A stretch of DNA of 64,000 nucleotides from Enchytraeus crypticus (lineage: Eukaryota > Annelida > Clitellata > Enchytraeida > Enchytraeidae): contig CAJHZI010000533.1 of assembly GCA_905160935.1 (NCBI GenBank), positions 1,826,001 through 1,890,000 of the forward strand. The letters are read 5' to 3'. Positions within the stretch are counted from its first letter, which is position 1. Each line of letters begins with the position of its first letter. This document shows positions 4,452 to 63,252 of this stretch, in pieces. Position numbers and translations under genes: made by a program. The notes below the pieces were generated by a model. The model made no database searches, was not told where the DNA came from, and saw only the letters and a program-made list of their open reading frames with translations.

Positions 4452-4825
4452 TCTTCTTCAGTGCACTGCCGAGTGGCAGGTTCAAGGTAGATATTCATAC
4501 TCAAAGTCTGATTTCTCGCTCCATAAGAGCACTCCTTAGATCTACAAGTTAATCCCTTCACAAAGTCTTTGCCATATCCATACCTTATGTAGCCTATTGC
4601 TTGGGCAAAATATGGCTTCTGAGGTGGTTTCCAGTTGCCTTCCTCAGTTAGGTGGATTAATTACCATTTAATCCTGGAGGAAAATATTTCATGGTGAGGT
4701 GGGTCCCCTCTTACCATCCTCAGCTCCTGCCTTTAGTCGCCTCTTACGTACACGCGGCAGACTGTTTGCGGTTGCCCTATTCTGCAGTGGTCCAACCACA
4801 CCCAAGCACAACACGGCGAAACAAT
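4452..4825 (-). mobile_element. SINE family C, copy 2 (best uninterrupted copy)
   Basis: Read on the minus strand it has three parts. The head is CGCCGTGTTGTGCTTGGG, then GCAGAATAGGGCAACCG, then GTACGTAAGAGGCGACTAAA. The middle is AACTGAGGAAGGCAACTGG, then ATATTTTGCCCAAGCAATAG. The tail is GAACCTGCCACTCGGCAGTG followed by CACTGAAGAAG. The tail matches the 3' end of the RTE-like LINE at 23,650, and the head matches family D. I use this copy as the family reference. Confidence 0.8.
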
Positions 4826-5965
4826 AGTATACCTAATCTACAATAGTATACCTATAAAACTATCGTTCACTCCTGAAGTATGTCAAATGACTGATCTATT
4901 GTGAATTTACACATTCTGTCACAAAATAGATTGCCATGACCAACAAGTGCAATCCGTTCAATAATATTGCAAGAAATGGCTACCGGTGATTTAAATTAAA
5001 TAACTAATTATTTAAACTGATTTTTGCATAAAAAATAACTCTTTTTTGAGCATAGGATTCAGCAGCCTAGCTGTCAAAACAAAATTTGTTAGCCATTCTT
5101 GATGTCTCATATGTTTCGAAATTTGAAATTAGAGATTTATCAGGAAACTACAAAAAAAACTGAATTTGGCTTTAACAATGAATTTGACGTGGGCTTTGAT
5201 TTTGGTTTTGACGTTGGCTTTAACTTTAGCTTTTACTGTGGCTTTAACTTTAGCTGTTATTTTGGGTTTAACTTTGACTTTAACTTTGACTTTAACTTTG
5301 GCTTTTAGCAATCAATTAAATTATAATTCAAGTATACAAAGACTCCCGGTCAGGAGAGCTCTGAACGACGTGTGATGGCTTTACTGCACTAGCACATTGA
5401 GCGAATGATCCATTCAGATATATAATTGGAAATCAAAGAAAGCAGATAGTAATGCTTCTCTTTACCTCCAGATTTTTATTCCATCTGCTTTTCATGAGTC
5501 CAGGAGCCTTTTCGATTTAAGTGGAAGAGTTCAATTTCCAGAGACGCTATGGTGACAACGGAAAGAGAAGAAAATCACGTTCGACTGGGTTGAACAGTTA
5601 AATTGCAGTCTTTTCCAGACTCTTGAATTGAATTAAAAACTCCAATGTTGACCGTTTAGCAAACGTGTTTAGCCATTAGTTCAAGAAAAGCACGATTCTG
5701 TTTTATTGTTTTAAGGACTGTCGTGCCAGCTGAACGAAAAAGGTCCACGAAATCAAAGGTTAGCCAACAGAAAGTAATTAACTCCGTAAGCAATTGCTCT
5801 ACGGTAAATATTTATTTTATTTTCATAGAGTTCTTGAAGATGACGATAGATGCTAAGGTAACTGAAGCTCTTGAAGAATTTTACTTGACAAGTTTTCATT
5901 CAGCTTCTGAGAATTATAACTTGTTTAATGGCAGGATTACCGTAAGTCTTCGTGCTTGCTCCACT
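4826..5965. other. Noncoding stretch around the hexamer repeat
   Basis: Apart from the hexamer array I see no gene. The plus frame from 5723 runs into the family C SINE at 5966 and owes its length to that overlap. Confidence 0.5.
5163..5308. repeat. 6-bp based tandem repeat (TTTGAC/TTTGGC/TTTAAC)
   Basis: Tandem hexamers keep three frames open by periodicity, giving F/N/D/G-rich frames on plus and K/V/A-rich frames on minus. The amino-acid pattern is a product of the repeat and not evidence of a gene. Confidence 0.85.
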
Positions 5966-6250
5966 CCTCTCTCTCTCTCTAGTGTTCTGCCAATTGGCTG
6001 GTCCAAGGTACATCTTTCTACCCACGTGCGGCTTTTAGACACCTTAAAGAGTACTTCATAGATCAAGGAGTTGATACGTTCACAAAAAGATTATGCTGTA
6101 TACAAACCATAGCGTAGCATTTAGGTCGGAAATAAAATGGTTTCTGAAGTGTATTCAGTTGCCTTGCTCAGTTCGTGTTCAGTAGCTTCCTACGAAACTA
6201 CAGTTTACGGTTGCTCTATTCTTCAGCGTCCCGCACACAACACTGAGAAT
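5966..6250 (-). mobile_element. SINE family C, copy 3
   Basis: The window shows CTCTCTCTCTAGTGTTCTGCC, GGCTGGTCCAAGGTACATC, GGTTTCTGAAGTG, GTTGCCTTGCTCAGTTC, then the reversed head (ACAGTTTACGGTTGCTCTAT; TCCCGCACACAACAC). The order matches copy 2, with several small deletions. Confidence 0.75.
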
Positions 6251-7777
6251 AACGATTGCTAATTAGCAATCTATCATATTTGTCTGATAATATAATACAT
6301 GTATGTGTTTGAAGAACAACATAACCTTCGCAGTATTTGTTCTATTTCGCCTTGGCTCTTTATTAAATAGAGTATTATACACGTACATACATGTACATGT
6401 ATATAACATTACTTTCACGTGTACAGTGCACACTTATATGCGAGTGTAATTATAATACGTGTATAATACAACACCGTCCAAATGAAGCATACTAAAAAGG
6501 CGTACATAAAACTATATAATAATGCACCTTTATATATTATAATATAGACGGGTCTTATTTTTTGTATATTCATGTCTTATTTATATTATGCAAATGCATG
6601 TATATTTTGTATATATAATATAAATATATAATAGATATCATATTCACTAATTCACTAATATAATACACACGTAGTATAGTTACAATATTGTATAAATTGC
6701 AAAATCAAAATATGTATGAATAAACATACTAATCGAATCTTAAGACTGGATGACAAAGAATGTTAGATCAGAACTGACGGCAGGTTCCACAGTCATCAAA
6801 TGTTTGACCTCCACACGATGACTGACTCAGCATAATTGATTGATGGATAAATTCTTTATAGCGAAATTAATTTTCTAACAAATCATTTTTGAAATATGTT
6901 TAATTTTTAAACTTTTCTCGTTCTAAAATATGCCCAATACTCATAATTTGATGAGGAGTTTTTGTGCAGGAGAATTGTCAGAGATTTCAATATTTGTTTA
7001 TTGGCTTCTTGTTAATTGGCCGACTTGGTACTTTATATTAATTATATTGACTCTATGGATGATTTAAGCTAATCCATAATTAGATGGCATTCTTAACAGT
7101 AAATTTCCGTTGTGAAGAAAGCTTTAACTTAATATCAATCAAGCTGCTAGGCACGTTATAGACCTATAGGCCTATCGATCTTATAAGCCTACGTTAGAAA
7201 ATATGTGCTTGGTTTTCATTCCTCAAAGTAGTACAATATCGCACTATATGAAGAATGTCGTGAAAACTTCATATTTAATTGTTTTAATTTCCCCCACGTA
7301 GTGACTGATCTTGCTTTATTGCAGTTGTTGTTGTACCTGAATGTGTTTTCTAGATAAATTCGAACAACTCTGGATTAGCAAGACTAATTTCGTAGTAGGC
7401 CTATTTCTTAGATCCAGTTACAAAACAAGTAAAGACAAATACAGTAAAATAATGACAGCGATTTTCAGGATAACCTACCACCTGATATAGGCCTACTAAC
7501 AACCAAGCAATTTTTTAAACATTATCAAACGATTAGCATTCCTCTATTGTTTCTTGATTAAATGATCTTCCGATGGAATTTGACAGAATGAACTATTGGA
7601 AAACCTTGGAGATTTTTAACTATCCCAAGACTTTTCCTGTTAGACGTGAACCTGTCAGTTCCGATGGATTGATCTGCCAATACGAAACTTCACGCTTATC
7701 AACTCATCTCTCTCTACTATGTACTGGGCTTCACCAGGGTGTATTTGCTAAATTTTATAAGAGGGTAGTTGGGGGTT
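6251..7777. other. AT-rich noncoding stretch
   Basis: Nothing coding is recognised. Near 6290-6720 there is alternating purine/pyrimidine DNA rich in ACATGTA and TATATA. A CTCTCTACTATGTACTGGG at about 7709 may be a decayed family C tail. Confidence 0.5.
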
Positions 7778-7785
7778 GTTGAAGG

Positions 7786-8220
7786 CATAGATGAAAAAAG
7801 CGTTCTTACCAAAATAAAAAACGTTAAAAAACACGTTTTTTTCCAAAAAAATTATAAACGTTGACAAAAAACGTTAGTAGCGTACACGTAGGCTTGCATA
7901 TATATTACCATGCCTTAACACTGCATAACACTAAACAATTTTATTACAACTAGACTTGATCTAAAGTTCTAAATTTCTACAGTATGTCCACAGATTCCAT
8001 ATAAATATAAACAAATACTTTTAGGTCACATACAGCCAACTATGTTTTGGCTCACAGTTGAAATAATTAGAGGTGAGATCACAGTGTTTATCTTAATTTT
8101 TACGTTTGACGTTTACGGTTGACGATTTTTTAGGTTTTTTATTTTATAAAAAATAAAAAACGTAAAAAACGCGTTTTTTAACAGATATAAAAACGTAAAA
8201 AAACGTTTTTTTCATCTATG
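7786..8220. mobile_element. hAT-type MITE with 8-bp target-site duplication
   Basis: The 435-bp element starts CATAGATGAAAAAAGCGTT and ends AACGTTTTTTTCATCTATG, the reverse complement with one mismatch. It is flanked on both sides by the identical 8-mer GTTGAAGG (7778-7785 and 8221-8228). Both ends carry clustered AAAAAACGTTAAAAAA-type motifs, the usual layout of subterminal transposase-binding sites. An 8-bp duplication and CA-purine-rich TIRs are hallmarks of the hAT superfamily (established knowledge). With no transposase ORF inside, it must be nonautonomous. The perfect duplication suggests a fairly recent insertion. Confidence 0.85.
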
Positions 8221-10620: not shown

Positions 10621-11087
10621 TTACTTTTATCAGGTGCACATTGCACAAGCAACAAATATCATTCTCGATTGAAAAACTCATTAGAAAGGCATTAAGAGAA
10701 TAATAAAGATAAATATTTTGAAATTTTGTCGTGATAAAACTGGAAAGGATTTGTCTGACTTAAAAAATTATACATGAACAAGCTTTAGAACTTTTAAGAA
10801 TTTTTAAATATTATTATTGTTATAATTTAGTTACTTCAATTTTATCAATACATGTATATTTTATTTATATAATTTTTATTAACGTGTAGGCATGTTTTTC
10901 GAAACTTATGTTTATTTAGAATTCTTATCAACGTGTAACCTATTTACTTAATTGTTTATTTCTTTTATTTACTACTCTTATTTTGTAAATCTTTAATGGC
11001 TTCTTTATTGATCGACAATAGTCAGGTGCATAGACTGTAGATAGAAGTCTTCCCTATCCACTGTATTATTATGCTAAAATATATACT
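10621..11087. other. Noncoding stretch
   Basis: No gene or element identified; a T-rich, AT-only segment lies at 10800-10995. Confidence 0.5.
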
Positions 11088-11345
11088 TTCCCGTGTTGTG
11101 TCCGGGACATTAAAGAATAGACAAAATTCAAACGGGCGTGTCGTAAAAGGCGACCAAACAGAAGCCACCTCTGACGCCTTTTTTCCAAGCTATAGGCTAC
11201 ACAGGTAAGGATAATGTACAGGAATAGAATTTTGTCAATGGATTAACTTGCGATCCTTGAAGTGCTCTTTATGGTGCGTGAGAGCAGACACTGATTGATA
11301 GTATGTACCTTGGACCTGCCGCTTGACAGAACACTAGGAATAGAA
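11088..11345 (+). mobile_element. SINE family C, copy 4 (sense)
   Basis: Sense head: CCCGTGTTGTGTCCGGGACA, TTAAAGAATAGAC, GTGTCGTAAAAGGCGACC. The middle follows (GCTATAGGCTACACAGGTAA), then the tail ACCTTGGACCTGCCGCTTGA, CAGAACACTAGGAATAG. The head is nearly identical to the head of family D copies, the clearest evidence that C and D are modular relatives. Confidence 0.8.
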
Positions 11346-11441
11346 AGAGAGAGGCAGAGAGAGAGAGAGAGGCAGAGAGAGAGGCCTAGAGGGAGAGAGT
11401 GTGAGAGAGAGAGAGAGAGAGAGGCAGAGAGAGAGAGAGAA
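11341..11441. repeat. (GA)n tail of family C copy 4
   Basis: An interrupted GAGAGA array directly follows the SINE tail. The E/R-rich plus frame and L/S-rich minus frame here are repeat translations. Confidence 0.9.
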
Positions 11442-12474: not shown

Positions 12475-12675
12475 GACGTCGCGATATCGTGGTTCTATTA
12501 AAAAGAATCACGATTATATTAAATGAGACTTTGAGATTAAATTAGATAAGATTAAATTAGACTTTGAGATGGTTACACATCTCTTACATACATAGAACCA
12601 CTACTTCACTCTGCTAAAATTCATAGTCCACTGCATTTCTAAATCAATTTATATTAATTACTGTCTACTAAACTA

Positions 12676-12965
12676 TCTCTTTCTCTACTTAGTGCTAAGC
12701 CATATCATATGGCAGGGCCAAGGTACGTATTGCTCAGTGTTTACTTTCTAGAGTTATGAAGAGTACTCCATCGATCAACGAACTAATATTTTCAAATAGG
12801 GCTATGCTTCCTCTAAGGATTTCTATTCTAAGGTGTTGGAAATATACGGCTTCTGCGGTAATTTCCCTTGCTTCCTCAGTTCTTGTGTAAACACCTCATA
12901 CAACTGATGCAGATTACGATTGATCTATTCTTTAGTGTCCCAGATGCAATACGAAAACCAGTAAC
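12676..12965 (-). mobile_element. SINE family C, copy 5
   Basis: CTCTACTTAGTGCTAAGCC, ATGGCAGGGCCAAGGTACG, CGGCTTCTGCGGTAATTTCC, CTTGCTTCCTCAGTTCTTG and the reversed head (ATTACGATTGATCTATTC; GTCCCAGATGCAATACG) appear in family order. Confidence 0.7.
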
Positions 12966-15056
12966 CAATGATCTTGGATTGCTCTTTGTACGAGCGAAAT
13001 TTTAATTTGACTCCACTGAAAATTGAAGTACGGTTCTATTGCGTAATATTTCAAATAAACTCATCGCAAGACTGTTATTGTTAAGTCTCTGATATTTCAA
13101 TTGAGAATTAGAATTCAAAATGTAATTAAATGTTTAATTTTTAACTTTTGATTAAATAAAGTATCTTTTATTAAAAGCCCGTTTTTATACAATAGTTCGA
13201 CTTTTCCACGAAAACACCTTTTCAAAGACTGCCGATATGATTTTAAGTTCGCCTAGATTTTGTCGTTATCAAATTCACAACATGATTAATTCTGCACGTG
13301 AAATCGACACGTATTCAACAGACAATTTACTCTCTATAGTAAGTCTTACAGAGGATCAAATGCTGGATTTTACGTTTTAAAGTTTCGAGTCAATGTTGGT
13401 AGAAGACAGATGTCCAATCATCCAGATCCACTCTGTCGTCACATCTACCGGTCACGTGATACTAGTATTATCATCATCATCTAGTCGTCGATCATTGCTG
13501 TCAGACCACCTCAACGAGCTTTCTTCTTCTTTTCTTTAACTGTTTTTCATGCGCTCTTTAATTTTTATTTTCTACTTAAAATGTTCGAAACCAGGATAGT
13601 TTTGAAATAATTGAATGGAATCTAAATACCACTAAATATCTATTTATATACTGCACATATAAATAAATAGCTAATCCTTTTTATTTAGCGATCATTTCTA
13701 TAGTATACAGTACTAATGTGTTTACTTAGAGTAAGAAATTTAACATTATTTTTAATTGCTAAATACCAATTAATGCATTTTCGGAAGGCATATCTAAGAG
13801 TAAAACTTGCTTGACATACTATAATTATACATGTATTGTGTATATCTAGGCGTTTATTATGTACTATATTATATTTATCATTATTATGTATTATATGGTA
13901 TATATTCCATTATAACATCAATTATGATCACTTTAATCTAATTCGCAAGAGTTTGTCTGTAAATTACGTGCATATAAATTATATATTAAGGTTGAAATTT
14001 TTTAAAGCAAATTGGTTTCTGATCACACGGGTTTTTATCGTGACACCTAAATGTGATAAACTTGACATTAAATTACAATTCTTATTGATTATTGCGCTAT
14101 ACTTGAGGTCATCCAAGTCAGAATTTTGAACACTGTTGTCCATAAGATAAATAGACTCATGGTAGAAAGCCTGGAGCACTTGTATGCAAGTTTACAGAAA
14201 ATAATTAAAGCAGCGATAAACTTAATTTCATAGATTGATTATTTAATGCCGAACAAAGTCATTTTCCGCATCTCTGGCATTCGTTATGTTCCGTTGATAA
14301 TAAATTGATATTGAAAGGGACTTTCATACTGTAAATCCAGATAATTGACCTTGAGCCGAACTGTAGGATTTGTCTGGAACGAGCACTAACCTTGTAACAA
14401 TGATCAATGCGGAAATCAAATTAATGTTCTCATTACATTCTGTGATTTATAAAAATTCTGCACAAATAATTGATTGCTATAAGTTAATCGAACCAGGCAT
14501 ACTCATTCTAAAACTACTTTGTAATCTCTGCTTAACGAATTCGGCGCATTTCGAGAGGGTATGTAATTATTTATTAAGCTTAATTAATCTAATATAACCT
14601 AATAGGCTGCTGTCTGAAGTCTTAATACGGACTATTTTAGCGATAACTGATAGGATTCTGTCACGATATTCAGTTGTTGAGACGAAAATCGATGAAAGCA
14701 ATAGACAGGTAAGGAAGTAGTGACACTCACTTGTTCTTTTATCAAAATACTTTTAATTTTAATAATGTTAAAGGCGAAGATTCGATGCTGACGTATATTA
14801 ACTTAAAATTGAAATAAAGTGAACTAGCAAGAGTAATCAACTAATTGTAATATAAGATGCTAATGCAAATATAAAGATACTATAAAGTACTATTAAAATA
14901 CTATACGATTTATAAATGTGAATCTGAAATAAAAAGCATAAAATGCTACCATCAAGTAGCCTGCTTTGAAAATCGATATAATTTTATTACAATTATAAAT
15001 GTTAAAGTTATTGTTCCAATGCTGCTACTCCATAGATTCAGCTACTTAATAATAAT
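12966..15056. other. AT-rich noncoding stretch, 2.1 kb
   Basis: No gene or recognised element. Opposite-strand frames of 97 and 66 codons near 13,836-14,179 overlap each other in low-complexity AT DNA. Neither has start context, a domain or splice-site support. Confidence 0.5.

Positions 15057-16626: not shown

Positions 16627-16675
<49 letters not shown>
16627..16675. repeat. (AAT)n microsatellite
   Basis: About 16 AAT units at the junction between the GC-rich fragment and the RLE-type LINE fragment. Confidence 0.9.
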
Positions 16676-21975: not shown

Positions 21976-23438
21976 TTTTCCAGTATCATAATTTTACCGC
22001 AGGTGAGTACAGATTAGATAGTGAGTAGGTAGAGAGACATCTTCTTACGTAAGAGTCTACGGGTTCATATCACATACAGACAGTCTCAGACTCTGTTATT
22101 TGTGTAATCTAATTATCGCCTTGTTTTATCTCCTACTGTGCTATCTACTGTGTTAAATAGCGGTCAAAATGAAAAGCTGTTTGGCTACAAACTTCTCAAG
22201 TTCTTTGGAGTATGGAAATTAATGATTGACTAGCTCTAATGGGGTATGCTTTGAACTGGGGACGAAACTGTTCTTGAATTGGACGCTTGGACTATACATG
22301 ATATATATGTATATGATCTGTATTATTATTAAATATTGTAGTGCATAATTAATTCATAATATATCATTTATGGAAAATATTGTATGATGTAAATGATAAG
22401 CTGTTGGTGACCTGCTCGATAGCCATAGGGCTCCTCAGGAAGCTAAAAACCATTGCGTACTGTCTAAGTTTATTGTATGTTGTTAATTGTTATGTTATTT
22501 TGTAAAGTTTAGTGACTTGAAACAAATAAATACATTTGTTCGGCTAATTTTACAATTAGTCATTATCAGCGATGGCATACTCTGAAACCGATTGATCTAT
22601 TTAAACGTTGATTTGAATCCTACATTTTCTACATTGATCTCAAGATTGTAGGACTATTTCCTACGGCGCAGCTAATAAATCAGAGTCAACTTGACCATAG
22701 CCGTAGGTTAGGACTACCGATTATACAAGTATTATAGTTAATGCTAAACTTGAAGTGGAAGCCGTGAGTTCGACATTCTAAATGAATAATTTCTAGATAT
22801 CTTAGATAAGGAGGAGGGTGTTGTTGCACCCTGTATCTAGATATAGCAGACATTTGTTAATGAACGGGCGATTTTATAATTGAAATCGGAATAAATCAAT
22901 GTATTTTGAAAATTTAAAACTTAAATTTAATATCGGTTGATGCTAATGCATTCAATCGAAACAGAAAATGCAGTGAAAGTATTTCCACAATTAATTTCCA
23001 CTGTCAAATTATGAGTATATCACATTGCTCAAAATAACTTCACCCTACTGATGATAGGAACTGTTACCCTACATGTTCATTAACCAGTATGATGAATTAC
23101 ATTCGTTGAGCAAAGTAGTATAATAAGAAAACGATCTGGAAGATTGGAAAATTGCAATAATAAATCTTTGTGAATCGTGTACAAGCGGTCGTCTATTTCT
23201 GTCACTGCATTGTTTGTTTGATGTTATAATTAAATCGGTACCGTTCCTATGGCGACTTAATGATAAGTGAAACCCGAGGCGTGTTAACATTTTAATTACT
23301 AACCATTGGTGTCAACTAGGGACTTACGCAATAGGTTGATATTATTACCTTATGACGCTCAGAAGAGAAAACTAAAAATTAAAACTAATCTTAGTTGATG
23401 CCAAAGCAATCTATAGAAAATTAATATTTGTAATGTAT
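21976..23438. other. Noncoding stretch with a possible LINE/mRNA 3' end
   Basis: 22,390-22,535 (CTGCTCGATAGCCATAGGGC, CTCCTCAGGAAGC, then T-rich DNA and ACAAATAAATACATTTG) resembles the 3' UTR of a CR1/L2-like element or a processed transcript on the plus strand. No ORF precedes it. The rest is unassigned. Confidence 0.4.
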
Positions 23439-23648
23439 ACTCGTGTTGTGTCCGGGTCTTGTTAAAGAACAGACCAACCGTGGACTGCACGTAAAGCAAA
23501 CAAAGCACTAAGATCTAAACCAACTTCAGAATGGGCATTCGCTTGGTGAGATCCTAGACGACAGAAATTTCTAAACATTTTCCAATTCTGACCCTGGTTA
23601 AACTGTGTTTCAGGGGATGATGATGACGATGATTGATGATGATGATGG
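23439..23648 (+). mobile_element. SINE family D, copy 1
   Basis: Sense order: head CTCGTGTTGTGTCCGGGTCT, TTAAAGAACAGACCAACCG, TGGACTGCACG; middle CTAAACCAACTTCAGAATGG and TTCGCTTGGTGAGATCCTAG; tail GACCCTGGTTAAACTGTG and TTTCAGGGGATGATGATGA. It ends in GATGATGAT, which directly meets the inverted RTE-like LINE 3' end at 23,650. Confidence 0.8.
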
Positions 23649-23649
23649 T

Positions 23650-25350
23650 CTCTCTCTTAGTGCACTGCCTACTGGCAGGTCCATGATAAATAACGCCTCC
23701 TCTCTTCTCTGTCTTCCGACTTCCTCTTCATTTCCACATATGAGTGGGTCTTTAAATCATCTAACATACCTAATCTCGGCCTGCCCCTGTCTCTTTTTCC
23801 TTCCATTCTACCTTCTATGACCTCTTTTAATAGACCTTCCCCCTTAGAATGTGTCCTATCCATCTCTTCTTACTATTTCTTAATACATTTATCAACTGTC
23901 TATCTGTGCCAACTCTCTCCAGAACTTCCTCATATGTAACCTTTTGAGTCCAGCTGATTCTCTCCATTCTTCTCCAAATCTACATTTCCAATGCCTCCAG
24001 TTTCCTAATATCTTCCTTCCTTAAGGTCCATGTTTCACAACCATACAATAGCGTAGTCCAAACCAAAGTTTTCATTATCTTTATCTTTGTGTCTTTCTTT
24101 GGACTTTTTGTTAATAGTTCTTTTCTACTACCAAAGGCCGCTTTTGCTTGTGCAATCCTACTGCATATTTCCGTCTCACATTTCCCATCATCGGTTATAG
24201 TATGACCCAAATATTTGAAACTTCTTACTTGTTCCAATTTCGTATCATTTATTGTAATATTGACTTCACCTTTATTATTGGACACTCTCATAACCTTGGT
24301 CTTTTTTATATTAATCTTCATGCCATATCTTAGGGCCGTATCATTCAGCCTATCCATTATCTTCTGCAATCCAATCTCGCTGCCCGCTACCATTCCTTGG
24401 TCATCTGCAAATCGTACATCTTGTAACAAATTCCCTCCTACTTTTATTCCTTCTTCCAAGTCTTCCATGGCTTCCTCCATCATTGCCTCAGCGTAAATGT
24501 TAAACAGCAGCGGCGAAATGCTACAACCCTGTCTTATTCCACGTCCTATTTCACCTTCTTCTGAGTATAATGTTGGGATTTGATTACTGCGCTTTGATTC
24601 ATGTACAAGTTCAAAATTAGTCTTTTTATCTCTCCAGTCAATTCCTATTCTTTTTAAGATATTCATCATCGTTATCCAATCAATCCTGTCAGAGGCCTTC
24701 TCGAAGTTTACAAAGCATACAAAAACGTCATTTCCATATTCTAAGCTTCTTTCGCAAAGAACCCGCATTACTCCTATTGCTTCTCTTGTGCCGCATCCTT
24801 TCCTAAAACCAAATTGTGTCTTGCTCAGTATCATCTCTGCTTTCGACTGAATGCGATTATTTACTATCTTTAATAAGATCTTCGATGCATGAAGTATTAA
24901 GCTGATTGTTCTGTAATCCGAACACTCCACAGCATTGGCTTTTTGGGAATTGGAATCATCACTGACTTGGTAAAGTCGTCTGGCAAAATACCTGTACTGT
25001 ACACTTCCATACATACCTCCATTAACTCTTTGAGTGTTTCTCCTTCCAACATTTTCAATAATTCTGCTGGGATTTCATCTATTCCGGCTGCCTTCACCTT
25101 CTTCATACTGTTAATTGCAGAATAAATTTCCTCCTTCATTAAATCGGGCCCCTTTTATCGTCTTCTATGATATTTTCTTCTTCTATGTTAAAATCCTCTT
25201 GAACTGGTTTCCCAACCTTATCATACAATTCCTCCCTTATGCCTTATCATACAGCCTTATTCCTACAATTCCAGAAGATGATGGTATAAAGTATTATATC
25301 CTCTTGAGGGCAACTCTCGAAAGACATTTTCTAGAAGTTTCTTAGCCTTG
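23650..25350 (-). pseudogene. RTE-like non-LTR retrotransposon, RT to 3' end, inactive
   Basis: The reading frame runs on the minus strand from about 25,345 to 23,690. From upstream: DKRGPDLMKEEIYSAINSMK; KKVKAAGIDEIPAELLKM; PIPKK; then, after a one-base frameshift near 24,940, CSDYRTISLILHASKILLKI; TQFGFRKGCGTREAI; FVNFEKASDRIDW; RQGCSISPLLFNIYAEAMME (about 24,485-24,540); and the catalytic block FADDQG (about 24,397-24,414, in place of the usual Y/FADD). FKYLGHTITDDG, LLYGCETWTL, a stop near 23,977, WTQKVTYEEVLERVGTD, another frameshift near 23,850 and RGRPRLGMLDDLK finish the ORF. The N-terminal apurinic endonuclease is missing. This organisation matches endonuclease-reverse transcriptase LINEs of the RTE/Jockey group; RTE-like is my best assignment. 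The 3' tail (GGACCTGCCAGTAGGCAGTG, CACTAAGAGAGAGA) is shared with SINE family C. Confidence 0.85.
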
Positions 25351-25357: not shown

Positions 25358-25550
25358 TTTATCTTCCCTTGAATCCCAGTTTAACTAGGGTCGGGACTAG
25401 AAAATTTTATAGCAAGTTCTAAAGCCTAGTCGCTCACCAACCAAATTCCCTTTTTGAAGTTGGTCTGAATCTTAGTTCTTTTTCGCCATTTACAATACGG
25501 GTAGTCCAGGGCTGGGCTATACTGCAGTATTCCGGATGCAACACGGGCAA
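25358..25550 (-). mobile_element. SINE family D, copy 2
   Basis: Antisense copy: ATCTTCCCTTGAATCCCAGT, TTAACTAGGGTCGGGACTAG, then TAGTCGCTCACCAACCAAAT and AATACGGGTAGTCCAGGG, CGGATGCAACACGGG. With copy 1 it brackets the RTE-like LINE in mirror orientation. Confidence 0.75.
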
Positions 25551-25567
25551 ACCATCATTCTATGGAA

Positions 25568-25622
25568 ACATCTCTTCTCTCTTAGTGCACTGCCAACTGA
25601 CAGGCCCATGGTATATAACGCC
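25568..25622 (-). mobile_element. RTE-like LINE 3' end only (heavily 5'-truncated)
   Basis: TCTCTTAGTGCACTGCCAAC, TGACAGGCCCATGGTATATA and ACGCCTCCAC match the terminal 55 bp of the LINE at 23,650 in the same orientation. Shares the MHCQLTGPW-type frame start that inflates a spurious 114-codon ORF at 25,585. Confidence 0.75.
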
Positions 25623-25946
25623 TCCACTTTTATGGAAACATAAAAACAATAAATATAAGAACGTCAGTGAAATCCAAAAATACTTAGATTTCATTTATCT
25701 ATGCTTTATATTGAATCCTTCTGATCCGCACGTCAATCGGCGTCTAGTAGACCACGGCGCTCAGGAAGGCAATCTAATTCCCAGCCCTGGCATTATGTGG
25801 AGACATTTGCGCTACCTACTAAAAATAACTCAATCACACGAAAGTACCGCGCCTTTACATAATGTATTATTGCCGTACAGCCTTTATTTAGGAATGAAGA
25901 TGGTCTACTCGTATCACGATCGTGGCTAAATTGTGATTTAAGGGAA

Positions 25947-34090: not shown

Positions 34091-34734
34091 TAAACACTTG
34101 GCAGGCAAAATCAACACATAAGAAAATAAATCATGAGCAAGGTATTTAAAGATAGAAGGTGTAACATAGTAACTCTAATAAAATAACTACAATCTAATAA
34201 CTAGATCTCTCTATTTACTCTATAATCTAACTACTCTAATATACTCTACTTCTCCATTCAATGCCGAAGATGCCCAAAAGGGCATCAGCGACGCAACCAC
34301 GATATCAGGCGCCCACTTTTGTAAACTGCTTGTACTTGCAATTTGTGATTATCATATAGAACGAGATCGTGCCAGGAGCTGACTTTCTTACGGAGAGCAT
34401 GGACTCAGCACTGGAATGATGGTACATTAAGTGGAGTACTGTGTGAATCCTGAATCATTCGCTAAGCAAGCGCCGCGCAGTGACGTCCTAACAACGAGTG
34501 AGTGGAAAGAGAATTCCATGCCGCGATTTATTGCGTCTAACGAATCATTTATTAGATTTGAAATGTTTATTAGTGATGTAATTTATAAGTGATATAATTT
34601 ATAAGTGATGTAATTTTTGATTGATGTAGCCTAATTTATGTTCTGTATAATAATAGACTAATTGGCAAAAACGTAAACCACATATTAGTTTTAACGATAT
34701 TTAAATTTCTTATTGAATTACAGGGTACATAGGT
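34091..34734. other. Noncoding stretch
   Basis: Nothing identified; a short direct repeat of TTTATAAGTGATGTAATTT/TATAAGTGATATAATTT occurs at 34,570-34,620. Confidence 0.45.
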
Positions 34735-34870
34735 ATGGATAAGACATAGAATTAGTGAAGAGATTAACTTGTTGATCTAAGGAGTGCTCTTACGGAGCGA
34801 GAAAACAGATTTTGAGTTTGAATATGTACCTTGCACCTACCACCTGGTAGTGAACTGAAGAAGAAAAATG
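34735..34870 (+). mobile_element. SINE family C, 3' half (sense)
   Basis: AAGAGATTAACTTGTTGATC, TAAGGAGTGCTCTTACGGAG, ATATGTACCTTGCACCTACC and ACCTGGTAGTGAACTGAAGA reproduce the 3' half of copy 2. The head is missing (5' truncation). Confidence 0.75.
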
Positions 34871-35724: not shown

Positions 35725-36015
35725 ATAAGCATCATCATCATCATCATCTTCCCTTGAATCCCAGTTTAACTAGGGTCGGGATACGAATAGATTGTCTCAA
35801 ATCCTCTCTGTCCTACATCATATCATCTGTCAATCCCCTATTTGAGACTTTTCCATTCGTTTAAATTTTTTTAGCAATTTATGGAACCTAGGCGTTCACC
35901 AACCTAATGCCCGTTCTTACGTTGGTATGAATATTAGTGCTGTAGTCGCCTTCTAAGACACGTGCATTCACTGGTTGGTGAATTCTTCAAACAACCCGGA
36001 CACAACATGGGGAGA
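35725..36015 (-). mobile_element. SINE family D, copy 3
   Basis: Starts in (CAT)n, then CTTCCCTTGAATCCCAGTTT, AACTAGGGTCGGGATACG, CCTAGGCGTTCACCAACC, TAGTCGCCTTCTAAGACACG, TGCATTCACTGGTTGG and ends AACAACCCGGACACAACATG. Full length from head to GAT-repeat tail. Confidence 0.85.
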
Positions 36016-36149
36016 AAGTGTCCGTTCAGTGTCCGTTCTATCTACTTCATTAATCTAAGTAATTTAACTTTTTATTTGGTTGAATTTTTATTGCTTTATT
36101 GATTGAATGTGTCATATATTTCATAACAGAACATAACATAACATAACAA

Positions 36150-36372: not shown

Positions 36373-36949
36373 TATCTATTTTTATTTTCCACTTTCTTAC
36401 GTGAACTAAGCTAAACGTGTTTTTATTTAGCAAATTACAGAAACTAATATTTACAGGGTCAATATTATAACTAGTCATTAACATTTGCCATAATTTTAAT
36501 AGTGTATTCAGCAATATACAAGTGTACCAATGCATTTCAATTCACTTCCGGTAAGTTATAATCTTTTAACGATAATGGAGTTCTCAGTTTATTTAGCAAC
36601 AGAATGATTGTGCGACGATTTTTCTAGCGTCATATACATACAATATTTAGAAGTTAAAACAGAGTTGGTCTCGAGTTGGTGCTAGTAACCATGGTCATTC
36701 AGCGCAATATCTAACATTCAAAAAACCAAAGATTATGCAAATGTTTCAGTGAAATATTGGATAAGCAATCAAAATTCCTTTTTTGACAAATTATTGGCTA
36801 TCCAATGAAGAAAGTAAGTCTCTAGAATAGGAGATCAGTAGGTTTCTATATTTAAAATTATGGCAAAATAAAACAGTTTTAATTCTGCGTGTTAGCTTAG
36901 AATTTGCTTAATATATAGTTAAGTCAATCCGGATTGATTAAAATGCGGT
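36373..36949. other. AT-rich noncoding stretch
   Basis: No gene or repeat recognised. Confidence 0.45.
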
Positions 36950-37235
36950 TCTCTCACTAGTTTTCTGCATATTTGCAGGTCTAAGGCACATATTCCTATT
37001 CACATTCTGCTTTCACGCTACACAAAGAACACCTCATCGATTAAGGAGTTAGTTTTTCTACAAAGGGCAAAGCCTTACTCATAATTTAACGTAGCCTATA
37101 GCTGGGAAAAATATTATTTCTCAAGTGATTCCCTTTGCTTTCCTCAGTTCTTGCTCAGTCGCCACTTGCGACACGTGTAGTTTACGGTTGGTGTATGCTT
37201 TAGTATCCCGGTCACATCATGGAGAAAAATGCGGT
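36950..37235 (-). mobile_element. SINE family C, copy 7
   Basis: TCTCACTAGTTTTCTGC, TTGCAGGTCTAAGGCACAT, ATTTCTCAAGTGATTCCCTT, TGCTTTCCTCAGTTCTTGCT, GTCGCCACTTGCGACACGTG, TAGTATCCCGGTCACATCAT follow the family C order from tail to head. Confidence 0.75.
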
Positions 37236-37709
37236 TATCCTTGAATCATCAAAGTTTAATCTCAGTATTCATCTTGTGCACATTTTTTAAAGTGTATATT
37301 AGAAACGCCTTTCACGATTATTTCTATAAAAATGAGGCCATATCGCTCTTCTTAACATTACAGCAATGATTATTGTTTACACGTATAGTTAAGCGACCCA
37401 GTTATAAGGCGTGATGGATGATGGTGAAAGGTAAAACGGATTAAAATTTCCAACGAGTTTGCATGACGCTAAATGATGTATTGAACCTTTAGTATAGATG
37501 AGACTCAAACCCTCTTGACTAAGTAAAGCTTATAGCCACACAATATTGGAAGACATAATCGAACGAGAAATAAAGGCTACTAATAAGTTTATATGAAAGA
37601 CTAAAGAAAAAATTCTCATTTGTTGAGTTTCTATAAAAATTCAAACGGTAATGCTCGTTTAAAGTTGATTCTCTTCGCTTATTATATACAGTGCGGGATC
37701 TATACCACT
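37236..37709. other. AT-rich noncoding stretch
   Basis: No gene recognised; the 65-codon minus frame at 37,519 has no features. Confidence 0.45.
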
Positions 37710-44604: not shown

Positions 44605-44818
44605 TGATTCCTCTTCATGTCCACATATGAGTGGATCTTTAGATCATCCAAGATTCCTAATCTCGGTCTGCCTCTTTCCTCTTACCTTCCACGCTACCTT
44701 CTATGACATACTTCGGTAAACTATCTCCCCTTAGAATAAAGAGGAAAGCGTAAGACAGAGAAGAGTGGAGGCGTTATATACCATGGACCTGCCTGTAGGC
44801 AGTGCATTAAAAGAGAGA
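44605..44818. mobile_element. RTE-like LINE 3' end with internal 5' inversion
   Basis: 44,737-44,815 is the element 3' end in sense orientation (AAGACAGAGAAGAGTGGAGG, ATGGACCTGCCTGTAGGCAG, TGCATTAAAAGAGAGAG). The adjoining 44,605-44,735 is the next upstream part of the same element in antisense (TCCACATATGAGTGGATCTT, AGATCATCCAAGATTCC, CTTCTATGACATAC). Together they cover one continuous stretch of the element, meeting around AAGAGGAA, the pattern expected from twin priming. Confidence 0.8.
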
Positions 44819-46112
44819 GCGATTGAGAGATATATACATGTATATAGTGATTAAACTTAGAATTTAATTACAGTTTTATTTAAAAATTGTCATTCCTAAG
44901 CAGAATAAAATATCAGTATATGTCCTTTATTACGTGTATACTCTCTGTGACTTCTTGGCTACTGAATTGGGTTATTTCTTTGACAGGTGAAAGACACACT
45001 GTGTAGTTAACAATTTCATTAGCGACACAACTTCTTCTACTTTCAATATACAAAATATTTGAATTTTTGTAATATTTCGATCTGTAAAACTCAGTAGTAA
45101 ATCGATTTTTATATTAATCGTGTTCTTTAAAGCATAGCATTGATCCCAACTATTCCTGCTACCTCTAGCTTCTAATTACTTTTCTTCCGCGATATCCATC
45201 ACCGCCAGTCTTCATTATTTTCAGAGAAACGTTGACAACGCTTCCTAATAGTTACGAGACATGCAACTACTTTCAATTTAAAGTTATATATCCAGTAGAA
45301 GCTAGCGACCAGATAATGAACCATTAGCTAATCCATGCATGGGCGTTATGACATAGTCAGGGAGCGATGGTATGAAGGGGTCTAAGCCCAAAGACCTGGT
45401 ACAGAACCTCCAGATCAGTCGGCACAGATTCAAAGAAGATGCCAAGAAACTTCTGATGAAATTTACATATTTGCTATAATCTATTTCATAACTAAATTAT
45501 TTCAAGAATACGCGTTAATTTGTAACATACATATGACTTTTTCTGAATTTAAATTTTAAGCTCTTTGAGGGTATATTTCTTTTCTAGTTTCAAGGTATAC
45601 CAATTCCCAAGACCCTGTGATGAAAGCTACTGCGTAGCCTCCGTAATAGCCTGACTGAAAATGTCGCCGTTGTTTCCTATTATTCAGCGAGGGGAGAGTT
45701 TACGAACGTGTAATGTGTTTGTAACGTTTCTCTGAAGACAAACTAAATCTCTGCCTCGAGAACTAGGTCAGAGTTCTAGTTTGTTGACAGGTCAATGACC
45801 ACTTCCAGTGGATCTAACGTACACTGCAAGTGTCGAAAGAAGAGATTATCTGGCACTAATAGTGACGAAAGGAAATCAAGATCACATTAGTAATTTTTAC
45901 AAACGTTAAGTGCAACATTACGAGTTTCTATGGAATTAATACTAGAGTTTTAACGCTTGTTTCCCATCCAGGGATATCTGCTCAGGACGTATTTAATTTG
46001 GTATGAATATTTTTTAAACAAATCTTTCTTTATTCGATTAATGCTGCTGAATGAACAAGAAGCAGGACTGTTAGCATGAGTTTGAAATCTACTTTATACA
46101 CACAGAACACAT
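44819..46112. other. AT-rich noncoding stretch
   Basis: No gene. 45,340-45,450 and 45,590-45,740 are slightly richer in GC than the flanks but give no domain in any frame. Confidence 0.45.

Positions 46113-46250: not shown

Positions 46251-46312
<62 letters not shown>
46113..46312. repeat. (GA)n and (TA)n microsatellites
   Basis: (GA)n at 46,113-46,132, then TATATA at 46,141-46,186, 46,200-46,225 and 46,253-46,312. Short non-repeat islands separate them (CCCGGACACAGTAAG and its near reverse TCGCTCACTC side). Confidence 0.9.
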
Positions 46313-46314
<2 letters not shown>

Positions 46315-46553
46315 CGTACTGTGTCCGGGTTGTTTGAAGAAATGACCAACCGGTGACTGCACGTTTCGTAGAAGGCGACTAAAGCACTTAAAATCGTACC
46401 AACTTCAGAAAAGGTTGGTGAGCGTCTAGGTCTCCAGAAAGTGCTACAAAAATTGAAACGAATAGAAAATTGTCAAATAGGAGATTGGCTGGCGGTTTGG
46501 TGTAAGACAGAGATGATTTGAGACAGTCTATTTGTATCCTGACCTAAATTGAT
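46312..46553 (+). mobile_element. SINE family D, copy 4
   Basis: TACTGTGTCCGGGTTGTTTG, AATGACCAACCGGTGACTGC, ACGTTTCGTAGAAGGCGACT, AAGGTTGGTGAGCGTCTAGG, TTGTATCCTGACC. Its 3' end goes into TATATA rather than the usual GATGAT. Confidence 0.8.
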
Positions 46554-47415: not shown

Positions 47416-47466
47416 TACAAGAGAGGCTAGTCTTTAGTTAAGTCTGGGACTTTATCGGTTCACCCG

Positions 47467-47722
47467 TGCTATGTTCGGGTTGTTAAAGAATAGACCATCC
47501 GTGGGCTGCGCGTGTCGTAAAAGGCGACAAAGCACTAAGATCAAACCAACGTCAGAAGAGGCATTCGGTTGGTGAGCGCCTAGGCTCAACAAATTGCTAC
47601 AGAAATTGTTTTAAACGAATGGAGAAGGTCTATTCTTGTCTCGATCCTAGTTAAACTGGGTTTCAAGAGAAGATGATGATTATGATGATGAAGATGATGA
47701 TGATGATGATGATGAAGATGAT
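47467..47722 (+). mobile_element. SINE family D, copy 5 (intronic)
   Basis: CCCGTGCTATGTTCGGGTTG, TTAAAGAATAGACCATCCG, GTGTCGTAAAAGGCGACAAA, CGGTTGGTGAGCGCCTAGGC, TCGATCCTAGTTAAACTGGG, TTTCAAGAGAAGATGATGAT. Full length; begins about 57 bp after the splice donor, in sense with the gene, and ends in about 50 bp of GATGAT repeat. Confidence 0.85.
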
Positions 47723-47768
47723 GTGACATTATCGGTATAACATATGACTCTGAAATATTATTTTCAAA

Positions 47769-50989: not shown

Positions 50990-53165
50990 TATTTCAGCAT
51001 CAACACCAAAACATTGACAAATGCAAACAGAAATAAACATTTAAATGAAATAAAATTTTAAAAATTCCCAGCAACACAGTGTGTCAAACAGTTTATAAAC
51101 ACCAGAACAACGGCCGTCAGGGAAGATGATACACATCATATCTAGCTGACCACCGTCTATAACTCATTAAGGACATATACATGTATAATGCAAAATCAAC
51201 CGAAATAAAAATTTATCTCAGAATTAATGAACGAAAAGCAAAGAAAATACATTACAAATTAATCTGATTATAAAGCAGTTATCTAAGTCACAATTCTATC
51301 TGAACATTTACACAAAAAACGAAAATATAGACATTTACAAGCCATCAAACAATATACATTTGTAAAGTTTGGTGAATTCAGCTAGAGACCTCGAACTGCG
51401 GAAATCAGGAGGTATTTGGTTCCAAGAATTGACATACTTATAGGCATAAGATTAAAAAAAATTCTGAGGTTGTACTAGCACATAAATAATTGGTCTCGGA
51501 GATTTTGGTATTATATACAAACGAAATCTGATTGTCAATCAAAATACATCTCATGGATTCTGACATAGTCAGATCGGAAAAATTAATACATTTAAAAACA
51601 AGTTTACCAGTATTATGTAATTGGAATAACTCAAAAATTGGTAATACAATATAATTCAAATAAAGTTGTTTAACATTATGAAATTTTTGTTTATTCTGTA
51701 AAGTTCTTGGAATACGGTTACAGGCAACATGTAAGGGTTGAAGCAACTGTTTGATTGTATTTGCATAAACTTCAATTCCATATCGAGTCCTTGATTTGCA
51801 CCAATGAAAGGTATAAATTTCTACGACAATTCATAGGAATAAAGTCTCTACGATTGTATAACATACTATTAAAATTATTAATTTTAAAGATTAATGATTT
51901 AATATGATCACCAATAGTCAAATTATCATCTAATGTTAAGCCTAAGAATGTAGTAACATACGTTCTATTAATGCAGTTATTATCAAGGGAAACACTTAAA
52001 TTGTAAGATCGAATAGTAGCTTCATCGTCTTTAGTGACGTAGAATAAAACATATGAAGACTTCAAGCAATTTACAGTTAGCTTGTTACTTATAAACCATT
52101 TACTTATTTCAGAGCAAGCTAGATTCGCAGAAAAACAATTCATCAATAGACTTATGTTTAACAAACAAATTAGAATCATCAGCATACAGTATAATGGACC
52201 CAAATGTACAGGCATTATGAATATCATTCATATAGATTATAAACAGTAAAGGTCCTAAAATAGAACCTTGAGGGACACCGATACTAAGAGGTAACACACT
52301 AGATATGCTGTCACCAATTAAGGTGTATTGTTTTCTTCGAGATAAATAAGAGCTAAACCAATCATAGGCAGTACCACGTATTCCATAAAAATGCAATTTG
52401 TGAAGCAGAATATTATGATCAACAGTATCAAATGCTTTTGAGAGATCTAAAAATATACCAAGTGTCGTGTTTTTATGATTATGTTCAGTAGATATTAAAT
52501 TAACACTAGAGAAAAGAGCATCAGTGGTAGAAAACCAAATTGATTTTCATTAAAGATTTCAAATTTATTTAGAAATGTAGTAATGCGTTTATGCATGATT
52601 TTCTCAAATATTTTACTTAAATTATTAAGGAGGGAAATTGGTCTATAATTTTCCACTAAATCATGTTTACCTTTTTATAAACAGGGATGACCTTGGCTAA
52701 TTTGAAATTCTCAGGAAAGTAGCCTAATTCTAACGATTTATCAATGATAAAGGTAAGTGGGTTAACAATGTAGTTTGCAGATAATTGTGAAATTTTACTG
52801 TCATTGCCAGTAGAATAACTTTTATTCATGGAATGAATGAAATTTAAGACTTCATTGTTGGAAGTTGGAGTTAGGAAAATAGAGTGTGGTAGAGCCCTGC
52901 TAAGAAAACTCTGATATGATACATCATTTCTTGGGATCGCATCTGCTAGCCGTACACTATTTTGTATAAAATATTTATTAAATTCTTCCTCAATGTCCTT
53001 GTTATTTCTAATAGCACCACCATTTGTAGTTAATTGATCAATAGTCTGATTTTTAGTTATACCACGATAACTGGTAATATTATTCAACGTTCTCCAAAAG
53101 AAGGTAAGGATTTATCCTTAATAAAAATTATGAATTCATTAATTAGTGCTTGATCATTAGTTCAA
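50989..53165 (-). pseudogene. CR1/Jockey-type LINE with RT domain, inactive
   Basis: On the minus strand the order is: NNITSYRGITKNQ and EEEFNKYF (about 53,090-52,970); ELGYFPENFKLAKVIPVYKK (RT block 1, near 52,670); ENYRPISLLNNLSKIFEKI; ENQFGF; a frameshift near 52,530; LGIFLDLSKAFDTVDHNILL (catalytic Asp, about 52,410-52,455); GVPQGSILGPLLFIIYMNDI (about 52,225-52,285); and the catalytic YADDSNLF (52,172-52,186). A frameshift near 52,140 precedes KWFISNKLTVNCLKSSYVLF and FLGLTLDDNLTIGDHI. A break near 51,770 precedes IEVYANTIKQLLQPLHVACN, giving at least three frame lesions. The endonuclease is missing (5' truncation near 53,165). The 3' UTR is 50,989-51,437. The motif set fits Jockey-superfamily LINEs of the CR1/Rex type; finer assignment needs a tree. 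Confidence 0.85.
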
Positions 53166-54829: not shown

Positions 54830-54967
54830 AGAGTCATCATCATCATCATCATCATCTTCACTTTAATCCCAGTTTAACTAGGGTCGGGATGCGAATGAAC
54901 CTTCTTCACTCCTGTTTGTCCCATACCATATCAAAATCTCTTCCATTCGTTTTATAAAAATCAGAAA
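54830..54967 (-). mobile_element. SINE family D, 5'-truncated copy with 13-bp target duplication
   Basis: Starts (CAT)n then CTTCACTTTAATCCCAGTTT, AACTAGGGTCGGGATGCGAA and ATTCGTTTTATAAAAATC. It is flanked by AAATCTATCAGAT on both sides (54,817-54,829 and 54,968-54,980), fixing the insert at about 138 bp. Only the 3' part of the family was inserted, as LINE machinery does when copying stops early. Confidence 0.85.
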
Positions 54968-54980
54968 AAATCTATCAGAT

Positions 54981-56558
54981 GGAATAAAGTTTGCAAAATC
55001 TCTGCTAATGGAATTTATTTTAGAAATTCATATCTTAATTTAGGATTGATTTATTAATCCATGAATTATAAAAAATCAATTTATAAAACTATAATAATAT
55101 AAAATAAACTTATAAATAAATATTATAAAACAGTGCTAATTATAAGACTATAAATTTGTTTTATTAACACTTATTTGTTACATTGCTATCAATGCACTCT
55201 TAAAAGATTTAGATTTTTACAAGTGAAATAAATCAAGAAAAGAATTAAGCCTTAAAGAAAAATATAATTAACTACATAATTAGTTTATTGGATGCAGTTT
55301 TTAGAACTCTATGGCATCCGAATTGATTACTAGAAATTCATAACATCCTATGCATATTTTTATGATTCTGATAATTTCTTTGACTTACTAGCACTTATTC
55401 ATTTCAATGCTCTCACTGCACTTTTAATTATTCGAAATTTTATTAACTGATTAAACAAATAAAGTTATAACATTTCACAATCTATATAACGTTTCACAAT
55501 CTGTCTAGCATTGCAGAATTCGAGATTAGTAGAATAATTAAAACATAATTTCCTCGTAATCCGACCCCATAATCCACGAGTAACTGTCACGCTGGCTTAA
55601 TCTTAATTAGGAAGTTTCTAACATGTAGGTTATTATCATGCTGGTTTTTGGATAATTTTTATTCCGATCCTTTCCTTTTACCGTATTAATTTCTTCTCCA
55701 GTCCACATAGACACGGACTACATCAATGGGTGGGATAGTATCAGATTTTATTTGCTTTGGTAATGAAATCTCAACCTAAGTTAAGGACAGGGAGTGAGGA
55801 GCTTCGCCGTTTTTCCGGGAACTGAAAGGAATCCGTCGAACTTAAAAACTGACGCGAACAACTTTAATGTTCTTTAGAACAAATTATAATATTATTTTAG
55901 TTATTATTTTATAATTTAATTATAAGATTATAATACAATTATAATCAATCTGAAAATTTAGACAAGACATTATGACAGAGAATTTGAGCACATTCTTTTA
56001 TGCTTCTTTTAGAGTTTAGATTTCTGTAGTTCTTAAGTAATAAAAGACGTCATATGGGTGTATCATTACGAAACCGGAAAAAGAGTTCAGTTTCAGTTAT
56101 TAATTGTGTGTTAACCTTTCTCTAATTTTGTTGTAACTTTAAGATTCCATTAACTGATCTTAATTGTAGAACAGGTGTAGATCAAACGGAGATCGCTATT
56201 TATAGACGGCAACCAAATATTAATTGCCAAAAATTCTATTTCCATTTCAGTAAGAGTTACAGGCCTAAGATCATATCAGTTTAATATGCTGCTCGCTCAA
56301 TGTCCCATGTCTATTTGATATAATCTTTACACATTCTAGAGTATGCCAAAGACTGCTTGAGTGAATCAATAAGATATTTAAGAGAAAAGAATTTAACAGA
56401 TTTTGCGAGATCCACGCATACATTGCTTTCTGAAGATATATCGTGCATGTCTGAAAATGCTATTGATTATTTATTTGTTACTATCGTAATCTACATAATG
56501 TTTGCTTCCACACTCTTCTCATTGAAGAGTAAGGAAGCTCTGGCATCTTCTAATCTCA
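54981..56558. other. AT-rich noncoding stretch
   Basis: No gene or element recognised over 1.6 kb; 55,860-55,970 is almost pure A/T. Confidence 0.5.
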
Positions 56559-62340: not shown

Positions 62341-62510
62341 ACATTTTTTCTTTTTCGACTCTTTCGTTAACAATTTCTTCTTTACATCTTACGTTAACGC
62401 AGTCGATTCTACAGCCATCCATATCTTTTATGTGTACGAGAAAAAGCAAAGTAAAATCTAAAACAAAATAATGACACACGACGGTACATATATAATAATA
62501 CATAATAATA

Positions 62511-62628
62511 CGGCATCGTCATCATCTTCATTTTCCCTTGAATCCCAGTTTACGTAGGGTTGTGATAAGAATACACTCCTCCACTCCTCTCTGTCTCATA
62601 CCATATCATCAGTCAATCCTCCCATATT
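62511..62628 (-). mobile_element. SINE family D, 5'-truncated copy
   Basis: CATCGTCATCATCTTCATTT, TCCCTTGAATCCCAGTTTAC, GTAGGGTTGTGATAAGAATA, CTGTCTCATACCATATCATC. Flanked by TACATAATAATA at 62,499-62,510 and 62,629-62,640, a likely target duplication, though the motif is AT-simple. Confidence 0.75.
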
Positions 62629-62818
62629 TACATAATAATAGATAATATGCATTATTATACATAATAATATATAAGATGGATCTTTACAGCAGAAATAGAA
62701 AACTTTCTGTTGTGTCCATTCATCGTCTATCGCTTAAAGAAATCACATGTTCATAGACCGGCCTTTCTCAGAGCGGCGTTACAGTTAACTTGTGGCATTA
62801 CAGCATGGGAATATTTGC

Positions 62819-63197
62819 CATCTGATGTGTGCTATCTAATTAAATTGGTCCATCTGATGTGTGCTAATTGAATTGGTCCATTGATGTGTGCTATCTAATT
62901 GAATTGGTCCATTGATGTGTGCTATCTAATTAAATTGGTCCATCTGATGTGTGCTATCTAATTAAATTGGTCCATCTGATGTGTGCTATCAAATTGAATT
63001 GGTCCATTGATGTGTGCTATCGAATTGAATTGGTCCATCTGATGTGTGCTATCTAATTAAATTGGTCCATATCATGTGTGCTATCTAATTGAATTGATCC
63101 ATTGATGTGTGCTATCTAATTGAATTGGTCCATCTGATGTCTGCTATCTAATTATATTTGTCCATCTGATGTGTGCTATCTAATTGAATTGGTCCGT
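62819..63197. repeat. About 32-bp minisatellite, about 12 units
   Basis: Unit: TGATGTGTGCTATCTAATTG, AATTGGTCCATC. Length variants come from presence or absence of a TC before TGATG, and AATTAAATT/AATTGAATT variants are interspersed. It directly abuts a family D tail at 63,192. Confidence 0.92.
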
Positions 63198-63252
63198 CTT
63201 TTCCCGACCCTAGTTGAACTTGGATTCAAGGTAAGAAGAAAAGATGATGATG
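63192..63252 (+). mobile_element. SINE family D tail only
   Basis: CCGTCTTTTCCCGACCCTAG, TTGAACTTGGATTCAAGGTA, AGATGATGATGACTG reproduce the last 60 bp of family D with its GAT-repeat end. Insertion next to, or generation of, the 32-bp array at this boundary is notable. Confidence 0.7.

Follow-up and report, generated by a model that had tools for sequence, protein, structure and literature searches.

Where do the two ends of a short retroelement come from? In the usual view, the promoter of a short retroelement derives from a small RNA gene, and a long interspersed nuclear element (LINE) contributes the tail alone. The question is raised by a stretch of 64,000 nucleotides from the annelid Enchytraeus crypticus (contig CAJHZI010000533.1, positions 1,826,001 to 1,890,000 of the forward strand, from assembly GCA_905160935.1, which comprises 524,188,772 bases in 802 contigs). 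In this stretch – hereafter the window, with positions counted from its first base – a first-pass annotation made from the letters alone had recognised two families of short interspersed nuclear elements (SINEs), here called C and D, that share one 5′ head and carry different tails. All copy counts, and all that is said of dispersal, refer to the 64-kb window.

The answer towards which we lean, if only slightly, is that C and D are short, non-autonomous chimeric retrotransposons, each composed of a LINE-derived head, a family-specific body and the tail of an RTE-type LINE. They are better read as chimeric elements resembling short internally deleted elements (SIDEs) than as classical SINEs.

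One head in two families

Copies in the window were located by BLAST of the window against itself, after which the regions found were read. Head profiles were built from three C copies (at 11,090, 5,966 and 36,949) and, separately, from five D copies, the two being kept apart as a guard against circularity; because of its divergence, the long copy of C at 4,452 went into neither the C profile nor the C consensus. Each profile detects the other family: the C-only profile finds five of five D heads (E 3.8e-12 to 3.1e-7), and the D-only profile finds C heads at 37,229, 11,087, 6,250, 4,824 and 12,956 (E 1.1e-12 to 3.1e-4). The head profiles reached no E better than 5.0 against five 64-kb sequences simulated by a first-order Markov model. 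A joint profile of nine C and D heads adds heads at 12,956 (E 4.5e-7) and at 671, the latter (671-584) being detected solely in this way (E 2.2e-4).

The majority heads, drawn from four C and five D copies, are identical at 61 of 71 bases. That the two families have a common 5′ head, as first proposed, is borne out by this identity and by the cross-detection, which together rule out the possibility, raised by the first-pass annotation itself, that the heads are unrelated. The head strings it had quoted hold for the most part: CCCGTGTTGTGTCCGGG, TTAAAGAATAGAC and GTGTCGTAAAAGGCGAC are all exact at 11,090, whereas the copy at 47,467 has exact matches to TTAAAGAATAGAC and GTGTCGTAAAAGGCGAC and, in place of the first string, CCCGTGCTATGTTCGGG, alike at 14 of 17 positions.

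In both families the head is about 75 bases long and carries a signature in fixed order – GTGTCCGGG, AGAATAG and GTGTCGTAARAGGCGACTAA – while the 5′ end of the elements, as placed by target site duplications, lies near T(T)CNCCCGTG. Past the head, a BLAST comparison of C with D using words of 4 gave nothing but short chance matches. Because the heads agree to the extent described while the likeness ends abruptly beyond them, the 3′ limit of the head is a sharp module edge.

Two tails of probable RTE type

The C tail leads to a LINE resident in the window. This element (23648..25300, minus strand, its start near 25,300 being approximate) is 5′-truncated and frameshifted, ends in the C-type tail and contains a reverse transcriptase (RT) open reading frame (ORF) at 23980-25074, matched by RVT_1 (PF00078) at E 3.2e-26. 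Further 3′ ends of its family lie at 25560..25631 (minus strand; BLAST in the window and LINE-tail profile) and at 44608..44830 (LINE-tail profile). The latter runs on the plus strand at ~44735-44830, its upstream part (44608-44737) being inverted, which is the pattern left by twin priming. To judge from motifs rather than from a tree, both the resident LINE and the owner of the D tail would belong to the RTE clade.

A LINE-tail profile built from three LINE 3′ ends matches seven of the eight C tails (E 2.4e-7 to 0.034), missing the one near 36,949, and additionally matches 26,579 and 41,113; on the five simulated sequences it gave a single match, at E 0.44. The earlier statement that C shares its tail with the resident RTE-like LINE is thus upheld. 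This tail consists of a small inverted repeat plus (GA)n, and C and the LINE have in common only about 28 bases in addition to the (GA)n.

The D tail, which combines a small inverted repeat with (GAT)n, is distinct from that of C, again as first described: the string given for it recurs without change near 35.76 kb and 25.38 kb and is matched at 19 of 20 positions at 47,467. Upstream of it, a frame encoding D-[RK]-x-[EDQ]-x-R is found in all four D-type copies that hold the segment (at 35.8, 46.5, 54.9 and 62.6 kb), and the same motif precedes the resident LINE’s own tail; it occurs seven times in the six frames of the window, five of these being the four D-type copies and the LINE. The remnant frame is interrupted by stops, and the D-type copies are therefore no longer coding. 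Since they keep a coding remnant ahead of the tail, like the resident LINE, their sequence suggests that the D tail belongs to a second RTE-type LINE partner, not seen in the window. D itself has at least two forms, in which a segment of about 60 bases ahead of the tail is either present (35728-36021 and 46307-46553) or absent (23432-23648, 25361-25560 and 47457-47723). A 3′ end taken from a LINE, the first mark of a SIDE, is seen in C by means of the LINE-tail profile and may be read from the coding remnant in D.

Target site duplications, examined by script in 12 copies and compared with shuffles, are clear in three: at 36,949 (11 bp, p 0.0015), at 35,730 (16 bp with one mismatch, equalled by 0 of 2,000 shuffles) and at 47,467 (12 bp with one mismatch, p 0.0055). 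The duplication of the 4,452 copy is weaker (p 0.03), and that of the 62,514 copy lies inside a TTATTATG-rich stretch (p 0.0075). In their general build the elements agree with SINEs: they are short, non-coding and dispersed, with clear duplications in three of 12 copies and LINE-like tails in seven of eight C copies.

A relative of the head at the 5′ end of a LINE

The 20-mer GTGTCGTAARAGGCGACTAA was scanned through the genomes of 84,980 bacterial and archaeal species and gave a single match, on scaffold 3 of an assembly of the gill symbiont of Solemya velum. By itself this match proves nothing, as about 0.9 chance matches would be expected by our own estimate. Upstream of it, GTGTCCGGG and AGAATAG follow in the same order as in the window head. 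When a gapped alignment is anchored at the 20-mer and only the letters outside it are scored, the score is reached by 0 of 20,000 shuffles with either head and, among 19,527 real stretches, by none with the D head and by two with the C head. The full D profile, applied to the 5′ untranslated region (UTR) in which the match lies and with the 20-mer included, gives E 3.4e-5; the window head nearest to this relative belongs to the long C copy, with 27 of 29 positions alike.

The relative opens a LINE, standing directly ahead of its 5′ UTR and ORFs. An ORF1 of 449 aa starts some 550 bases past the motif and is followed by an ORF2 of 1,219 aa with the domains PF14529, PF03372, PF00078 and PF00075 (endonuclease, RT and RNase H), and then by a tail in ATTCC repeats. 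The LINE is intact and of I-superfamily architecture, with CCHC knuckles in ORF1 (a zf-CCHC match that, at 16.8 bits, falls under the Pfam cut-off of 20.8) and an apurinic/apyrimidinic endonuclease, an RT and an RNase H in ORF2. Apart from the head, its UTRs have only short, mostly AT-rich matches in the window (E 0.01 or worse), and its ORF2 matches the window’s two RTs (E 9e-12 and 5e-13) with no more than ordinary RT likeness.

We know of no LINEs of I-superfamily architecture from bacteria, and the motif occurs in one of 210 genomes of the symbiont’s order, namely the Solemya assembly itself; for these two reasons, the LINE stretch is probably DNA of the bivalve host that is joined to the scaffold of the symbiont. 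Between 518500 and 537000 this scaffold holds, besides the intact LINE, other ORFs that look eukaryotic by eye, so that part of it is probably host DNA. Viral contigs gave no match for the head patterns, the D-tail pattern or the RT protein, plasmids gave none for the head, and the papers returned by a search of the literature for head and tail strings concern, by their titles, other subjects. A similar motif may also occur in lepidopteran repeats with RTE ends, which would fit the bolder reading of the head as a portable cassette.

As an intact LINE bears a collinear relative at its 5′ end, the head looks like a LINE-derived 5′-terminal module. With regard to the other mark of a SIDE, a 5′ end taken from a LINE, what was found is this relative in another organism and none in the resident LINE.

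Weighing the origins of C and D

The chimeric origin towards which we lean can be set out as follows. The head of about 75 nt would descend from the 5′-terminal module of a LINE 5′ UTR and be followed by the family-specific body; the 3′ end of C would be that of the resident RTE-type LINE, and the 3′ end of D would come from the second, unseen RTE-type partner. The head may start transcription or set the 5′ end without a promoter for RNA polymerase III (Pol III), and the matching RTE reverse transcriptase would recognise the tail and, acting in trans, copy the RNA through target-primed reverse transcription. The head, rather than being owned by the RTE LINEs, would have been joined to their tails by template jump or recombination. 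If the head does come from a LINE 5′ end and is combined with more than one LINE tail, both ends would be tradable as units, and the signature of GTGTCCGGG, AGAATAG and GTGTCGTAARAGGCGACTAA would offer a sequence handle on how animal LINE 5′ ends work.

Several results count against this account. The window yielded no resident LINE whose 5′ end is intact, and none that bears the head. The head relative is one copy only, and the Solemya LINE is tail partner to neither C nor D, having an RNase H and a different tail. Without the 20-mer, a profile of the head part does not find the Solemya relative, and a local alignment is only suggestive, its score being reached by 107 (D) and 170 (C) of 20,000 shuffles and by 15 (D) and 48 (C) of 2,936 real stretches; the anchored scheme was the third to be picked, after these profile and local-alignment tests. 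Finally, six of the 12 copies examined have no target site duplication detected by the script – one of them, at 54,834, shows ATCTGATAGATTT on both flanks by eye – and one more, at 46,314, has nothing but AT repeat for flanks.

What the resident RTE LINEs carry at their 5′ ends decides between exchange of modules and plain internal deletion. If two related RTE LINEs started with the head, C and D could each be the 5′ UTR and the 3′ end of one of them, and thus ordinary SIDEs. A head relative does occur at a LINE 5′ end, D retains LINE coding sequence ahead of its tail, as a deletion would leave it, and there is a precedent in Persaeus, derived from the CR1 element Zenon (PMC6740152). However, the bodies of C and D are wholly different past heads that are 86% alike, C shares with the LINE only the terminal stretch of ~28 bases plus (GA)n, and the sole LINE seen with a relative of the head is of I-type, not RTE, architecture. 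We consider deletion somewhat unlikely.

The elements could also be classical SINEs whose head originated in a small RNA gene, its Pol III promoter being unrecognised; the Solemya LINE would then either have captured the head or resemble it by chance. They look like SINEs in length, in the type of tail and in the structure of the copies, and the most conserved part of the head contains a box A-like TGTCGTAARAGG with one mismatch. Yet 405 (C) and 352 (D) of 2,000 shuffles score at least as high as this match, the best in the head, and the head has no box B, the best candidate showing 4 mismatches. Across the whole window, an Rfam scan found no family at gathering score and ARAGORN found no tRNA; permissive Rfam scans of three elements returned no tRNA, 5S or signal recognition particle RNA. 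That the head contains no recognisable tRNA, 7SL or 5S promoter, as the first-pass annotation had noted, agrees with all of these scans, and a head derived from one of these RNAs is not supported, as it has no Rfam or tRNA match and its boxes are no better than those of shuffles. The label SINE, in so far as it implies Pol III, is accordingly not supported: within the range of recognised small RNA genes, the tests run found neither a tRNA, 7SL or 5S head nor an internal Pol III promoter, and we regard a classical origin as quite improbable.

Folding of the C and D consensus predicts two hairpins, but across nine copies the pairs covary no more than in shuffles, of which 277 of 500 reach the same or better pairing; as expected of decayed copies, this null result is neither for nor against an RNA function. 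The hairpin followed by CTAA, CTGA or CCAA resembles the end of ribozymes like that of hepatitis delta virus (HDV). Considered for its size and for those letters after the second hairpin, a self-cleaving HDV-like head that cuts the element free of co-transcribed host RNA, in the manner of Pr77 and R2 5′ ends, would match Pr77 in position and size (a 5′ module of 77 nt in LINEs and in their short relatives; PMC4035085) but is very improbable, given that a strict descriptor (nested double pseudoknot, P1 to P4) fits 0 of 12 head sequences, with 0 to 5 of 30 among their shuffles, that no ribozyme family in Rfam matches any of four stretches at E up to 10, and that the two-hairpin fold lacks covariation beyond shuffles.

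Copies and their surroundings

Full copies of family C lie at 11086..11441 (plus strand; head, C body, CCTGCC..CACTA tail and (GA)n, recognised by head profiles, majority heads and LINE-tail profile), at 5960..6260 (minus; head and LINE-tail profiles), at 36945..37238 (minus; head profiles, with an 11-bp target site duplication, AACCGCATTTT, and a tail that the LINE-tail profile misses) and at 12670..12973 (minus; head profiles, tail E 0.018). The last of these is new to the list of the first-pass annotation, as is a long C subfamily, comprising a full copy at 4452..4825 (minus; head and LINE-tail profiles) and a copy at 105..684 (minus) with its head at 671-584, its body and tail at ~345-105 and an unmatched stretch between them. 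In addition, there is a 5′-truncated copy at 34719..34870 (plus; tail E 0.034) and one at 63880..64000 (minus; tail E 0.0018) that extends past the window edge.

Family D is represented by full copies at 47457..47723 (plus; short form with (GAT)n tail, recognised by head profiles and tail string) and 35728..36021 (minus; LINE-coding remnant and the 16-bp duplication with one mismatch; head profiles and motif), and by a copy at 46307..46553 (plus; head profiles and motif) that holds the remnant, has a degenerate tail and lies within an AT repeat. Two short forms, both recognised by head profiles, are found at 23432..23648 (plus), tail to tail with the LINE, and at 25361..25560 (minus), flanked by two LINE pieces. 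Three tail-only copies have been added: D-type tail and coding remnant without a head at 54832..54986 and 62505..62630 (both minus; BLAST in the window and motif), and the tail alone at 63197..63253 (plus; BLAST in the window).

The stretch 23432-25631 is a nest of elements: one D copy stands tail to tail with the LINE, and a second separates the LINE’s upstream end from another 3′ end of a LINE. Inspection by eye shows a ~30-base tandem repeat (GATAGCACACATCAGATGGACCAATT-like) next to a D tail at 62830-63190 and a putative seven-helix receptor exon at 47200-47410, ahead of the 47,467 copy of D. Elsewhere, another LINE RT fragment (52109-52546; RVT_1, E 2.4e-20) falls outside the resident RTE-like family, and an open frame of 371 aa at 16675-17790, lying where the G+C content is higher than elsewhere, has no Pfam match at E up to 0.1.

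Comparison with known systems

Mosaics of this type are already known, and the present case is a variant of them, in which the relative of the head at a LINE 5′ end is new. The short retrotransposons of molluscs treated by Matetovici et al. in 2016 (‘jigsaw’) reportedly mix and match heads, bodies and tails, with LINE-derived 5′ ends and shared tails; C and D would resemble them in this build, and may even be among them.

The R2/R1 hybrid SIDEs of Drosophila (PMC3414825) carry a 5′ module from one LINE in front of the 3′ end of a second and are moved by the machinery of the tail’s owner. C and D would resemble them in placing a LINE 5′ module on another LINE’s 3′ end. For the R2/R1 elements, however, the two partners have been identified, as has the ribozyme at the 5′ end, and the target is 28S ribosomal DNA, whereas the head of C and D is non-HDV-like by test, the copies are dispersed and the exchange is a proposal. 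Persaeus and its CR1 partner in Lepidoptera (PMC6740152) likewise illustrate a short element made from LINE ends, with the difference that both ends come from one partner LINE, of a clade other than in C and D. The truncated RTE elements mistaken for SINEs that are described in PMC2887409 share with C and D an RTE 3′ end with a coding remnant beside simple repeats but have no common 5′ head.

In trypanosomatids, Pr77 is a 5′ hallmark of 77 nt that the L1Tc/ingi LINEs share with NARTc, RIME and the SIDERs and that acts as both promoter and ribozyme (PMC4035085). The likeness lies in a single 5′ module of some 77 nt common to LINEs and short non-autonomous elements; it is one of position and size, and the two activities are demonstrated for Pr77, while a promoter role of the present head is a proposal. 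One might go further and see in the head a portable 5′ cassette of about 75 nt, conserved across distant animal hosts, that would start transcription or set the 5′ end for I and RTE LINEs as well as for short elements and would change hands without regard to the 3′ tail. Such a cassette would be to animals what the Pr77 hallmark is to trypanosomatids, though differently folded, and we hold this reading to be unlikely.

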